A DNA stretch of 20,593 nucleotides from a virus, in IMG/VR virus record IMGVR_UViG_3300021375_000211, positions 1 to 20,593 of that record; one strand, written 5' to 3'. Positions 9,720 through 18,259 of the stretch are shown here, piece after piece. The notes under the pieces were generated by a model that searched no databases, was not told the origin of the DNA, and was given only the letters and a program-made list of their open reading frames with translations. Position 1 is the first letter of the stretch; each line of letters opens with the position of its first letter. A program made the position numbers and the translations under genes.

Positions 9720-9930
9720 ACTCTTTGCCTCTTGGTCTTGAGTTTACCCAATCTTCAACCTCGGACAGAACCCAACGGCTAGAGGACCGCTTGTTTGTTT
9801 CGTCCCCCAGAACAATGGGCTTCGGAAAGTTGTCTGTAGTCTGCGCTAACTTGTAGACGTAGGATCGCGACACACCCAATAGGTCCGCAACTTCCCCCAC
9901 TCGGAGCAAGCGATTAGAATGGGATGTCAT
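9709..9930 (-). CDS. AlpA-type helix-turn-helix DNA-binding protein
   Basis: A 73-residue protein with the AlpA/excisionase-like winged HTH. The segment LLRVGEVADLLGVSRSYVYK (8-27) is the helix-turn-helix. FPKPIVLG and the W-x-L-S-E-V-E-D-W-V ending are the typical wing and last helix. The ATG at 9930 has AAGGAG seven bases upstream and overlaps the primase stop by 17 bp. AlpA-type proteins act as transcription activators or recombination directionality factors. Its place inside a replication operon, with no integrase in view, favours a regulator. An excisionase role would need an integrase elsewhere in the genome. Confidence 0.88.
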   Translation of the reverse strand: MTSHSNRLLRVGEVADLLGVSRSYVYKLAQTTDNFPKPIVLGDETNKRSSSRWVLSEVEDWVNSRPRGKEYDT

Positions 9931-11440
9931 TTGATATCTCCTTCACAGGCAATTCGGTTTCATCTTCTTCAAAAGCAGGGACGTACCAACATCGGATGTT
10001 TGTCCGCTTCCCTTTGGCTTTTACTATATTCTGCACTCCATTGTCGCCGCCCATGTCCCGTATCATCTGAATAATGTGCGCTCGGGTCTGACCAACAAAC
10101 CTTCGATGGTGCAGATACTCCAACAGGCCTTCCAACTTAAACTTCGTCACACCACCATCGGTCCACGGTTTATTCATCTCGATTTCTTCTGGAGCCATGG
10201 CACGAATGTGACTGGTGCAGTAGGCAAACAAGTGCTCCTTGAATTGACCCGCAATCGTCTCCTCATACGGCACATCGATGTACGTTGCTTGGCTCATCAA
10301 ACTGTTGACCATCTGCTGCCACTTCTGTGGCTTAGTAGTCGGCGGCATAAAGTTACACTGCTCCATGCAAGCTCGCTGCCAGAGCGTTTGATTCTGCAAC
10401 TGCTCTGAGCTCAACTGAATCCGCAACCCGTTTACATCCATGAAATACAACCGAGGCTCAGACAACATGATCGTCAGCCCGCCAACCTGCGGTGCATCAG
10501 GCGCATCATCGCTGATCCCGTGCTTTGCCAAGACGCACAGAGATGGATCGCAGTATGACTTGAACGGCTCGTCCTTACAGGTGTACCCCCAGTCTTTCTT
10601 CTCGTGCTGTTTGATTACGGTCAGCACTTCTGAGGATGGAAGGGGTGGAGAGAATAACGTTCGGTTGTATTCCTCCAGGGAGGCTTGCCAACTATCCGGA
10701 AACTTCTTCTTGCAGTACACACCTATGAAAAACAAAAGCTTGTTCCTCGGCTCGCTCTGTGGCCCGTCCGAAAAGATGTTGCGTATGCAGGGAGGCCCAT
10801 CGTCGAAGTGCTTGCGAACCTTGGTCGTGCTGCGCAAAGCTTCCAAGTCAGCCAACTCAACCCGGTTCTTCTCCACCGCATCCAAGAACTCATCCAGTTC
10901 CATGGCCTCGCCATTGGGATTGTAGCAATACCGCTGCGGAGTTTCCGCATTGAAGTACGGCATGTTTATAAAGTTGCCAACATCACCGCGCTCGGCAATG
11001 ATCGTGTCCTGCTTTGGAAAAATCTCAACGCCACTGTGCCCAAGCATGATCGACATCTCGGTCAGGTATTCTCGGACCACGGCTGCTTGCTCCCACTCCT
11101 TGAGAAACAAATAGAGATGGGCGCCTCCGGACTTAGATCTGCAATGCAGCAACGGAAGCTTGAGCTTCTGGATCTTGTCCTGCATTTCTTTCTGGTTCAG
11201 ATCATAGACATCCACATCTATAGCACCGAACCGACATTGGTTGTCTTCGTTGATCGGAATGGCCCCGACCCCCTGCTCGCCCTTGATGTGCGCTTTGACT
11301 AGCGCATCTGTCAGCGGCTCTCGTATGATCTTACTCTTTGAGTCTGCCTTACCGTTCCGACCTATCCGACCTACGGATGTCGTGCCGTGAGCATTCTTGG
11401 CTCCGGCAAACGCGGCAAGCAGTTTTTTAGATTGTGACAT
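9914..11440 (-). CDS. AEP-type primase (TOTE/primase-polymerase family)
   Basis: A 508-residue archaeo-eukaryotic-type primase. The catalytic D-x-D is FGAIDVDVYD (D75, D77). The S-x-H segment is SKSGGAHLYLFL (104-112), and GNFINMPYF (155-163) follows as in TOTE-type AEP domains. A downstream Cys cluster (C288, C297, C302, YTC-x-YC-x-LC) resembles the metal-binding or PriCT region of such primases. The last ~170 residues are an extra domain of unknown function. The protein ends NDIPF, like the acidic tip of bacterial SSB. The ATG at 11440 has GGGAG six bases upstream, and a terminator-like hairpin lies just before it. It should make primers for the adjacent family A polymerase; a polymerase activity is also possible. 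Confidence 0.9.
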   Translation of the reverse strand: MSQSKKLLAAFAGAKNAHGTTSVGRIGRNGKADSKSKIIREPLTDALVKAHIKGEQGVGAIPINEDNQCRFGAIDVDVYDLNQKEMQDKIQKLKLPLLHCRSKSGGAHLYLFLKEWEQAAVVREYLTEMSIMLGHSGVEIFPKQDTIIAERGDVGNFINMPYFNAETPQRYCYNPNGEAMELDEFLDAVEKNRVELADLEALRSTTKVRKHFDDGPPCIRNIFSDGPQSEPRNKLLFFIGVYCKKKFPDSWQASLEEYNRTLFSPPLPSSEVLTVIKQHEKKDWGYTCKDEPFKSYCDPSLCVLAKHGISDDAPDAPQVGGLTIMLSEPRLYFMDVNGLRIQLSSEQLQNQTLWQRACMEQCNFMPPTTKPQKWQQMVNSLMSQATYIDVPYEETIAGQFKEHLFAYCTSHIRAMAPEEIEMNKPWTDGGVTKFKLEGLLEYLHHRRFVGQTRAHIIQMIRDMGGDNGVQNIVKAKGKRTNIRCWYVPAFEEDETELPVKEISNDIPF

Positions 11441-15838: not shown

Positions 15839-16076
15839 TGCCTAATCCCTCCGGTCGAAGCCTCGGTCGTACCACCCTCGATGGCTTGTCTGTCACCTCA
15901 CAAAACATCATGATGTTGTTGCCGTACAAACTATAAAGCTCATTGTACAACGGCATCGCAATGTCCTGATCCATGACCGACTGACATTGAGCCTCGTTCT
16001 CAAACCAAACCACCGTCTCCATCTCAAGGTCCTGCATCTCATAATGCAGGACCAACGCTGTAAAATATTCAATCAC
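15831..16076 (-). CDS. Small hypothetical protein, 81 aa
   Basis: The GTG start at 16076 overlaps the upstream TGA as GTGA and has GAGG seven bases upstream. The product begins with a beta-like segment (MIEYFTALVLHYEMQDLEME) and has a middle with two Cys (NEAQCQSVMDQDIAMPLYNE; later MMFCEVTD). It ends in an Arg/Pro-rich tail (PSRVVRPRLRPEGLGNG). I recognise no family. The Cys residues are too far apart for an obvious metal site. Confidence 0.68.
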   Translation of the reverse strand: MIEYFTALVLHYEMQDLEMETVVWFENEAQCQSVMDQDIAMPLYNELYSLYGNNIMMFCEVTDKPSRVVRPRLRPEGLGNG

Positions 16077-16570
16077 GCAACTTCCTCCTCAACACCCCGC
16101 AACGTCTGAGCAATATCCTCCAAAGGACCCATGTCCAAACCGATGTTCTCAGCACACCCACGATATCTTGATAACCAAGATGCCATAGCCGTCGCCGCCT
16201 GTCTGCGTAATTCTTGTTGAGCATCACTGCTCTCAGGATCAAACCGCTCATACCCACCACCACTCTTGCGTAAACTCACAGGACTGATGAACGTAGGGTA
16301 CTCACGAACCGATAAACTAACCACCTGATCATTGGTCGTCGTGTCTTGAACCACGATCCTTAGACCACTCGCCATCTGACGAGCCAACTGGATCCGATGT
16401 TGACGCGCAGCTTCCGCATCATTCAGACTATAGAACCAATCATATGCCTCATGCTCAGGCTGTCCACCCAACCAATCCACAAACTCATGCGGAACAAACA
16501 TGTTGTTCCCAGATGCCGCTAGATATTCGTCAATAATTCTTTGACGTTCTTTCTTTGGAAAACCAGCCAT
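16073..16570 (-). CDS. Conserved hypothetical protein, 165 aa
   Basis: I chose the ATG at 16570 (MAGFPKKERQRIIDEYL) because GGAGAAAAGAA precedes it. The frame stays open to 16690, but those extra 40 codons are repeat-array sequence (Arg/Gly/Ser-rich) and not credible protein. The N-terminal part contains NNMFVPHEFVDWLGGQPEHE and YDWFYSLNDAEAARQHRI. The C-terminal part has SVREYPTFISP, a Gly-rich turn RKSGGGYERFDP and a final helix MASWLSRYRG. I associate this pattern with hypothetical proteins of alphaproteobacterial phages and genomes. Function unknown. It is the first gene after the noncoding array and begins the run of seven small coupled genes. Confidence 0.78.
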   Translation of the reverse strand: MAGFPKKERQRIIDEYLAASGNNMFVPHEFVDWLGGQPEHEAYDWFYSLNDAEAARQHRIQLARQMASGLRIVVQDTTTNDQVVSLSVREYPTFISPVSLRKSGGGYERFDPESSDAQQELRRQAATAMASWLSRYRGCAENIGLDMGPLEDIAQTLRGVEEEVA

Positions 16571-16599
16571 TTCTTTTCTCCTTATATAGCTGTTTAATT

Positions 16600-17109
16600 G
16601 ACCGCCGCGCCTTGCCCCGACGTAACTTACCGTTCGCCGCCTCCCCGCGCCATGACCGCCGTACCGTGACCGCGACCCGACTGACCGCAACGTAACTCGT
16701 CATACCGCGCCTCGACCGCCTTAACAAACAATACCAAAACCAATAAAACCGAAACACATCTCGCCCCGACCGCCATGACACGACCTGACAGAACCCGACA
16801 TACCTCAACTTATCATTCCATGACCGCCGTACCGTGACCATAACTTAACCGAACACATCACACCTCACCTAGAGTGACCCCGACCGCCTTGCTGCACCGT
16901 AACTCTCCACGACCAACCATGTCTTACCGGACCCCGACCGCCTAACCAAAACGGGCCATGCCTGTGCCGCGCCCCAACTCAACGAACCCGTCCAAACCGG
17001 ACCGTGCCCCGACCGTCTTAACCCGACTTGCCATAACCGACCTTGTCACACCTCGACCGCCTGACCCAACCGGACCGTACCCCGCCCTAACCGAACGTGC
17101 TCGACCGCA
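16600..17109. repeat. Noncoding periodic repeat array (CCNYGACCGCC core every ~54-60 bp)
   Basis: The exact heptamer GACCGCC starts at 16600, 16654, 16714, 16768, 16822, 16882, 16936 and 17055, with variants at 17011 (GACCGTC) and 17103 (GACCGCA). Most copies are preceded by CC(C/T/A)(C/T). The first seven are spaced 54, 60, 54, 54, 60, 54, so the pattern repeats every 168 bp. A 22-bp identical block occurs at 16650-16671 and again at 16818-16839, exactly 168 bp apart. Between cores the plus strand is C/A-rich and G/T-poor and full of ACC/CCG words, often in 6-base phase. No reading frame crosses the region, so the whole 16571-17140 gap is noncoding. It could be a replication origin, a recombination or packaging site, or a structured RNA on the minus strand. 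It is not a standard CRISPR array. Confidence 0.8.
16650..16839 (+). repeat. 22-bp direct repeat, copies 168 bp apart
   Basis: Positions 16650-16671 and 16818-16839 are identical (CCATGACCGCC followed by GTACCGTGACC). This is the longest exact repeat seen in the array. It falls exactly on its 168-bp super-period, supporting growth by duplication of a three-unit block. Confidence 0.85.
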
Positions 17110-17140
17110 CCTCACCCAGACCGTGTAACCTTGACCAAAT

Positions 17141-17165
17141 GGATGGGGGCTCGCGGCCCCCATCC
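17141..17165 (-). terminator. GC-rich hairpin after the RAMP-like gene
   Basis: GGATGGGGGC (17141-17150) and GCCCCCATCC (17156-17165) form a perfect 10-bp stem with a 5-base loop, three bases after the stop of the 258-residue gene. On the minus strand only ATTTGG follows, so the U-tract is weak. It marks the boundary between the gene and the repeat array and may also stabilise the mRNA 3' end. Confidence 0.6.
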
Positions 17166-17168
17166 TTC

Positions 17169-17945
17169 TTACGCAACTAAAGTAATATCACGACGGGATC
17201 TCTCCTCCGCCATGAACTGCATCAACTCCTCAGTCTGCTCATCCGCAAACACAGGGTTGTCCATCGCATCCTGCTGAACCGCTCGATCCTCCAACATCAA
17301 CTCATCCCACTCACTCTGAAATGAACCCATGCTGTCCTCAGTCAGAACTTGGAACGTGCCAAACGATCCTCGGCCCTTCTCCTGCCGGAAGTCTCCAATC
17401 CCAACAATCGATCCCGCATTCGTCAATAACGACACAATCGAATACGCAGACAGGGTTGGTTGTACATACGCAATGTCAACCTCCGCACACCAACGAGGCA
17501 AGTAAGCCCGCGTCCGCATGTCCGGCGTCTTGTTCATGTCCGCAGAGCGAACCATGTCAATCTTTAACTGAGGCTTGCCCCATATCTGAACATGCGTCTG
17601 AGGTAAAAAAATCAACCGCTGCACACTCGTCTTCGTAATACCATCAGTCTCCAACGCAGCCGTAGCCATCGCGCCCTTGACCCCTGGAGCAGGGAAACAT
17701 AACAACGTATCCCCAAAAGACTTCTTGTAAACCGAATCACGAAACTCCTGCTCAGGATTGTGCTTGATCTCTTTCTTCTGCGCCGCAGTCTTGCGACCCC
17801 CACCAATCAACAAATCACGCATAGCCTTGCTGCTCATGCTGTTGAAATACAACGGGGTAGTGCCCATCATCCGAAGTTTAACGCGACCCTGCTTCAATGG
17901 TTGAATTTCCAATGCAGACTCTTGTGGTGCTTTCTTCGTTGCCAT
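17169..17945 (-). CDS. Conserved phage protein with RAMP/Cas7-like motifs
   Basis: A 258-residue protein; the ATG at 17945 has AAGGAG seven bases upstream. Its N-terminal strand is VKLRMMGTTPLYFN (22-35). A segment FPAPGVKGAMATAAL (84-98) resembles the P-G-S-x-x-K-G element of RAMP proteins. A glycine loop GIGDFRQEKGRGSFG (182-196) resembles the RAMP G-h-G-x-x-R-x-x-x-G-x-G pattern, followed by a strand TFQV. I recall similar phage/prophage proteins of unknown function with the same GxGDxRxEKGxGxFG loop. The RAMP/Cas7 relationship is my inference from motifs and order. The C-terminal ~50 residues are acidic. It is separated from downstream genes by a hairpin and the repeat array. RNA or ssDNA binding would be the expected role. 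Confidence 0.8.
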   Translation of the reverse strand: MATKKAPQESALEIQPLKQGRVKLRMMGTTPLYFNSMSSKAMRDLLIGGGRKTAAQKKEIKHNPEQEFRDSVYKKSFGDTLLCFPAPGVKGAMATAALETDGITKTSVQRLIFLPQTHVQIWGKPQLKIDMVRSADMNKTPDMRTRAYLPRWCAEVDIAYVQPTLSAYSIVSLLTNAGSIVGIGDFRQEKGRGSFGTFQVLTEDSMGSFQSEWDELMLEDRAVQQDAMDNPVFADEQTEELMQFMAEERSRRDITLVA

Positions 17946-18007: not shown

Positions 18008-18259
18008 TTAGTCAAGAACTTTTTTCACAATCCAAACGCCCTCGCGCCCAGACTTCTTTCCAGTGTCCACAATTAAACCAGCCTTGTGTAACTGAGTCAT
18101 CGTCGCCCGAACAATCGTAAGCTTCAATCCCGTGCGGTCCGACAACTGCTTCGCAGTCCCCGCTCCTCGGTCCAACTCACCCAAGATCTGCTCCTTGCGC
18201 GTCAACTTCTTATTGCTCCGACGCTTGCGCGTCAGACGTTGCCAAAATTCTCTAATCAT
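18008..18259 (-). CDS. Winged-helix DNA-binding protein, 83 aa
   Basis: A strongly basic N terminus (MIREFWQRLTRKRRSNKK) leads into a winged helix: LTRKEQILGEL (helix 1), GTAKQLSDRTGL (helix 2), TIVRATMTQLHKAGLI (recognition helix) and a wing ending REGVWIVKKVLD. This is a MarR/IclR-type small DNA-binding domain. The ATG at 18259 overlaps the 28-residue gene stop as ATGA and has GGAG eight bases upstream. It probably regulates the accessory operon or the RAMP-like gene just downstream. The 62-base gap after it (17946-18007) holds the next ribosome binding site and a weak GCGC dyad. Confidence 0.8.
   Translation of the reverse strand: MIREFWQRLTRKRRSNKKLTRKEQILGELDRGAGTAKQLSDRTGLKLTIVRATMTQLHKAGLIVDTGKKSGREGVWIVKKVLD

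Follow-up and report, generated by a model that had tools for sequence, protein, structure and literature searches.

Why should a seven-nucleotide core recur at nearly regular distances through a noncoding interval of a marine phage, when the sequence between the cores has diverged? The interval lies in the window (the whole stretch of 20,593 nucleotides of viral DNA analysed here). A sequence-only reading of this DNA saw in it a hierarchy of 54-, 60- and 168-bp spacings and supposed that selection acts on phasing, as at an origin, a site bound by a protein filament or a repeated RNA. I propose a different basis for the regularity: the interval is very probably the vrRNA guide array of a VIPR system, aimed at rival phages. 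VIPR (Viral Interference Programmable Repeat) was described in 2026 (bioRxiv 2026.04.26.720920, PMC13142463). In it, a phage-encoded RAMP protein, Vipr, reads DNA by means of vrRNAs composed of GGY/NN repeats, with one base skipped between NN pairs (PMC13142463).

The unit of the array

The eight exact copies of GACCGCC begin at positions 16600, 16654, 16714, 16768, 16822, 16882, 16936 and 17055, giving start-to-start spacings of 54, 60, 54, 54, 60, 54 and 119. An offset of 168 bp places copies 1-4 on copies 4-7, and a 22-bp identical block sits within a 49-nt pair separated by the same distance. In all this the sequence-only reading was accurate, and the autocorrelation of 16571-17140 lies far above that of dinucleotide shuffles: at lags 168 and 54, z is 6.0 and 5.9 respectively, the 99th percentile of the per-shuffle maximum z being about 4.0. 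The peak itself, which that reading lacked, is at a lag of 5 bp (z = 6.5), with further signal at 10, 15, 25, 30, 35 and 40 bp. Since lag 5 is the strongest, the unit of the array is a pentamer.

On the minus strand, which is that of the genes, 16604-17121 can be read as about 100 in-phase pentamers of the form G[G/T]Y-NN, the GGY motif being relaxed, with GTT and GTC both frequent. A single 4-nt unit (GGCG or GACG, from the core GRCGGTC) splits the array into about nine tracts, mostly 8-12 pentamers long (Table 1). Ten pentamers and the 4-nt unit make up the 54-bp module, and the 60-bp modules have one more pentamer and one more base at their common 3' end (GGTCACGGTACGGCGGTC), and this end is the '168-bp' block. 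The 54/60/168 spacings are thus counts of pentamers plus the 4-nt separator, together with one duplication at a module boundary. The hierarchy noted earlier is real, but its unit is a 5-nt repeat on the minus strand.

Table 1. Features of the guide array and its flanking genes in the window
Feature	Position	Strand	Basis
Candidate vap (vipr-accessory protein), phrog_15946-like, 165 aa, fold unknown	16073..16570	-	gene linkage
vrRNA array, ~9 tracts	16604..17121	-	pentamer parsing
Last GGCGGTC core, 3' border of array	16600..16606	-	sequence
Guide tract F, 10 pentamers	16607..16656	-	pentamer parsing
Guide tract E, NN = GA GC AT GA AC GC CA GG GC CA	16667..16716	-	pentamer parsing + target scan
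Guide tract D, 10 pentamers	16721..16770	-	pentamer parsing
Guide tract C, 10 pentamers	16775..16824	-	pentamer parsing
Guide tract B, 9 pentamers	16840..16884	-	pentamer parsing
Guide tract A, 10 pentamers, weak candidate target motif PKMCVETAQ	16889..16938	-	pentamer parsing + target scan
Guide tract 3, 9 pentamers, then slip + 4 more to ~16943	16969..17013	-	pentamer parsing
Guide tract 2, 8 pentamers	17018..17057	-	pentamer parsing
Guide tract 1, 12 pentamers	17062..17121	-	pentamer parsing
Hairpin GGATGGGGG...CCCCCATCC, just past vipr stop, 5' border of array	17141..17165	-	sequence
vipr, Cas7/Csm3-like RAMP protein, 258 aa, phrog_4652	17169..17945	-	fold + homology
Small winged-helix-like DNA-binding protein, upstream of vipr	18008..18259	-	PHROG matches to MarR + Ren-like families

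The array is the only one that a periodic parser finds on either strand of the window or of a 56.9-kb sister record. A coding repeat was considered, as the first spacings are divisible by 3, and rejected, because the strongest lag is 5 and the 4-nt units break the frame. A structured RNA was likewise set aside, as the array contains no inverted repeats and folds no better than shuffles (z = 0.68), and no Rfam family, hammerhead ribozymes included, gives a gathering-level match in the window. Nothing longer than the 7-nt GGCGGTC core recurs, and the spacers are themselves pentamer-periodic, so this is no CRISPR array. The view that the array is noncoding, selected and hierarchical, and unlike those of CRISPR, iterons or telomeres, was correct.

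A Cas7-like protein beside the array

Along the minus strand, the locus runs winged-helix gene, vipr, hairpin, array, vap candidate. The family of the vipr product is annotated as of unknown function. Its AlphaFold2 model (pLDDT 92) finds CRISPR Cas7/Csm3 proteins in all of its best Foldseek matches (E 8e-6), and the rows listed by VIA-align are all RAMP-type Cas subunits (Z about 10). The protein also carries a conserved G-rich loop, GxGDxRP...GxF. Then there is homology to the Vipr of a phage in which the system has been studied, SUSP1 (the protein at 28474-29061): hhalign relates the two families with a probability of 99.9% (E 1e-32, 181 columns). A Cas7/Csm3 fold together with homology to SUSP1 Vipr leads to the view that the array is the vrRNA array of a VIPR system. 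The suggestion of a repeated RNA and a filament-type protein was therefore essentially right, the RNA being a VIPR guide RNA and the protein Cas7-like. The identification rests on motif and array structure, RAMP fold, SUSP1 homology, gene linkage and code, each established by computation, as are the codon signature, the targets and the lack of self-targets considered below.

In each of the 76 loci in which both genes could be placed, the vap candidate shares the strand of vipr and lies downstream of it. The model of the vap candidate is confident (pLDDT 90), with no fold match in the PDB, no convincing match in Pfam and no detectable relation to SUSP1 vap1. In 28 loci a relative of the winged-helix gene lies close to vipr, on one side or the other, and the gene may be a second accessory or a regulator of VIPR expression. 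A hairpin follows vipr in relatives as well, differing in sequence and often missing the T-run. No further cas-like genes were identified among the window proteins scanned. Elsewhere in the window, 9917-11440 encodes a replication primase of the archaeo-eukaryotic type, with AEP-TOTE (TOTE conflict system primase) as its best Pfam match, and a 36-bp tandem repeat at 1631-1705 encodes EYIPPEPLGP at the start of a 1374-aa protein that has a similar motif, TYVPPEPLGP, near its C-terminus.

Conservation and spread of the array

With the vipr product as query, 75 loci were found in IMG/VR, and in about 60 of them the gene is followed by a G-rich array with GGCGGTC cores and a periodicity of 5 and 10. 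Whole tracts have been exchanged between phages with identical Vipr proteins while the cores and the periodicity are kept. Tract B is present in 11 records, the window included. The expectation that cores are conserved and spacers vary was borne out, but not the conservation of spacing, which ranges from 38 to more than 100 from core to core and is mostly 5n+4 (44, 49, 54, 59, 64, 74, 119). Selection on phasing does not account for the spacing, which is set by the number of pentamers in a tract plus the 4-nt separator. The two outcomes that would have told against the earlier observation, relatives with a random gap and an autocorrelation no higher than in shuffles, were both looked for and neither was found.

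The association with vipr appears also when the protein is ignored. A scan of IMG/VR for a pure DNA pattern, (GGYNN)7GG, gave at least 120 stretches, in many diverse phages, and 62 of the 92 array loci examined have a gene of the vipr family, nearly always adjacent and on the same strand. The Vipr proteins of array-bearing phages are 15-75% identical to that of the window. In the window's clade the array lies between vipr and the vap candidate; in distant relatives (L064-L073) it comes after the vap candidate, some 0.53-1.37 kb beyond vipr. The position of the array relative to the two genes is thus mobile, yet it stays beside vipr. The window DNA has no close relative among named phages, only distant similarity to proteins of Mycobacterium and Gordonia phages.

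Targets and the gapped code

If the array encodes guides, they should match something. Guide E does: with one nucleotide skipped between NN pairs, 20 of its 20 bases are matched, in frame, in 89 viral contigs, and the site (target sequence GAnGCnATnGAnACnGCnCAnGGnGCnCA) encodes the EAIETAQGAH motif of the large subunit of terminase (TerL) of the HK97 type. A scan requiring 8 of 8 central NN pairs retrieves at least 120 contigs with guide E, against 9-27 with five other guides. PHROG places the TerL concerned in the HK97 type, and it is about 55% identical to that of HK022, which retains 18 of the 20 bases, in frame. Among named GTDB genomes the 20-base pattern occurs six times. Three of these are at the terminase motif, two in a single Paracoccaceae isolate and one in a MAG that carries the label Euryarchaeota; the other three occurrences are in different contexts.

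From the size of the database, a guide is estimated to have a chance of about 0.07 of matching at 20/20 somewhere in IMG/VR. This is not tiny, and the claim of targets therefore rests mainly on the family-wide match of guide E and on an independent test, in which 224 tracts unrelated to guide E were compared with the 120 contigs that guide E had fetched. With a skip of 1, four tracts match at 18/18. With skips of 0, 2 or 3, none does, and 60 shuffles of NN order give a mean of 0.03 tracts. Recognition by NN pairs with a 1-nt skip thus appears, from sequence comparison, to hold in this lineage.

Then there is the usage of the NN pairs themselves. In 308 unique tracts (3,090 pairs) it follows the first two codon positions of the clade's own genes, in the sense direction, with r = 0.86 (KL 0.036), as compared with r of at most 0.13 for all other phases and the antisense; phase 0 sense ranks best in 500 of 500 bootstraps. 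Other VIPR clades bear the same sense signature more weakly (r = 0.58). The diverged sequence between the cores is not neutral; it carries guide information.

The four tracts of that skip-1 test, which belong to sister phages, supply the other targets when taken at full length. Those of L032 (22/22) and L026 (20/20) match the head-protease motif DVSIVTTPAY, that of L047 (20/20) the terminase motif EVGQVRGPHD, and that of L002 matches 21 of 24 bases on KVVRMESDIRKH. A tract of L031 reaches 18/20 on the terminase motif matched by L047. Among the window's own guides, E alone has a clear target. Guides F, C, B, tract 3 and A have 24, 18, 11, 27 and 9 matches, which is the level of chance, with no family at 20/20. 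The best for guide F is 19/20 in L202/L207, a candidate only and not above chance. Guide A matches at 16 of 16 central NN bases in six of its nine contigs (L407, L408, L412-L415), all in a phage protein family with PKMCVETAQ, but the outer pairs mismatch (18/20 at best), which makes this a weak candidate target.

The tracts do not match their own genome: the 56.9-kb sister genome with the same tracts contains no self-target, the best matches being 12-16 of 16-24 bases. In 1.6 Mb of other VIPR-carrying loci, no target stands above shuffles. Five metagenomes hold both VIPR-bearing and target contigs. One target contig, L339 (IMGVR 3300046170_000558), has terminase and head genes as well as an integrase-like ORF. 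It shares its metagenome of origin with the VIPR-bearing L047 and is possibly a prophage or satellite targeted by L047.

Alternatives to a guide role

One might suppose that the array is a decoy, a DNA or noncoding RNA to which the Cas7-like protein binds without being guided anywhere, in which case the NN pairs would be free to drift. A decoy would account for a GGY pattern that is kept while tracts differ between phages. It would not account for NN pairs with a sense codon signature, nor for matches to terminase and protease that occur under the 1-nt-skip rule only and almost never in shuffles, and homologous tracts change more at the Y position (14%) than at NN (8-9%). The idea is largely refuted already by the independent skip test, and I consider it quite improbable.

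Less credible still is an element of replication initiation, be it an origin, an R-loop or a G-quadruplex, formed by a strand-asymmetric, G-rich array. The gene strand of the array indeed has a strong skew of G over C, and the array is intergenic, near replication genes and present once per genome. But it shifts with respect to vipr and vap while keeping beside vipr, it is found in many diverse phages, and neither the codon signature nor the targets would be explained. The earlier suggestion of an origin has nothing to point to it. That the array consists of functionless, degenerate tandem repeats left by polymerase slippage is scarcely conceivable: the short units, module duplications and 168-bp offset are what slippage might leave, but not an array kept in phages with such widely differing Vipr proteins, nor its strand and gene linkage, codon signature and target matches.

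A model for the action of the array

If the array is indeed a set of VIPR guides, it would be transcribed from the minus strand with vipr and vap, giving RNAs of about 8-12 G[G/T]Y-NN pentamers, either by cutting of the transcript or by its use as overlapping guides. Along the RNA, each pentamer would be covered by one Vipr subunit, the protein gripping the GGY bases while the NN pairs read the DNA and pass over one target base between pairs. The skipped base coincides with the wobble position of a codon, so that a guide spells out, in the sense direction, positions 1 and 2 of about ten codons in a row. The guide RNA would pair with the template strand, and the RNP sitting on that strand of terminase and head-protease genes would block their transcription. 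Transcription, RNP formation, DNA binding and transcriptional silencing are expected here by analogy with experiments on SUSP1 and P. fulva (PMC13142463).

Because guide E and the guides of sister phages are aimed at HK97-type terminase and head protease, the system most likely acts on rivals that share its host, be they phages or prophages, and silences their packaging and capsid genes. To judge by the Paracoccaceae target contigs, the host probably belongs to the Rhodobacterales. A more doubtful idea is that this lineage constitutes a distinct type of VIPR, whose guides form a 'peptide code', always in sense, made up of positions 1 and 2 of some ten successive codons and drawn from highly conserved HK97-type packaging and capsid motifs. 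If so, one guide would cover many phage species, and the sense bias would point to transcribed strands as the source of the guides or as what they are selected against.

What the locus adds

The kind of system is already published; what is new is the marine lineage, the natural targets and the sense codon signature. The gapped VIPR code gains independent support here, from a marine phage lineage with only a remote relationship to SUSP1; the pentamer array and its Cas7-like partner were recognised from raw sequence, independently of the VIPR paper. VIPR, with its gapped code, may predate CRISPR (PMC13142463). As natural targets the locus supplies motifs conserved in the terminase and head protease of HK97-type phages, and two questions become testable: how new gapped guides originate and whether phages turn them against the packaging of rivals.

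Comparison with known systems

In common with published VIPR, the locus has a phage-encoded, homologous Cas7-like Vipr with an accessory gene near it, tandem YNNGG repeats beside vipr, a code that skips one nucleotide and targets in competing mobile elements. The differences are in the layout. VIPR ncRNA consists of about 9-16 tandem GGY/NN repeats beside vipr (PMC13142463), and Escherichia phage SUSP1, the example of type II, has one vrRNA array upstream of vipr and three downstream, each vrRNA with an invariable structured 3' tail (PMC13142463). The array parser, run on SUSP1 as a positive control, recovered exactly those four arrays. In the window there is instead one compact array between vipr and vap, with some nine tracts joined by 4-nt units and no apparent structured tail (only the 7-nt core recurs, with no excess structure), a relaxed G[G/T]Y, a vap candidate without detectable relation to SUSP1 vap1 and a strong sense bias. 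The architecture may be one already described, since staggered or overlapping arrays are mentioned for other VIPR types (PMC13142463). The targets differ too: HK97-type terminase and head protease here, satellites or lysogeny regulators in published VIPR.

Similar in design are three actinophages, Mycobacterium phage Donkeykong and Gordonia phages Ecliptus and UmaThurman, each of which has a phrog_4652-like protein and an adjacent (GGYNN)n array with a 4-nt slip (GGCA|GGC), the separator being GGCA rather than the GGCG of the window. In Ecliptus the array lies in the gap after gene 19. In the other two an annotated hypothetical gene overlaps it, gp48 of Donkeykong (L417, 2523-2866) and gp40 of UmaThurman (L419, 3626-3937). 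These two are probably not genes but guide arrays, and some actinophage ORFs listed as hypothetical are thus probably of this kind.

CRISPR-Cas systems of class 1 (Csm/Cmr, type VII) likewise have a RAMP fold that coats a guide RNA, with positions left unpaired at regular intervals. The array of the window differs from theirs in its period of 5 and its gapped guide, where CRISPR has identical repeats and unique, contiguous spacers.
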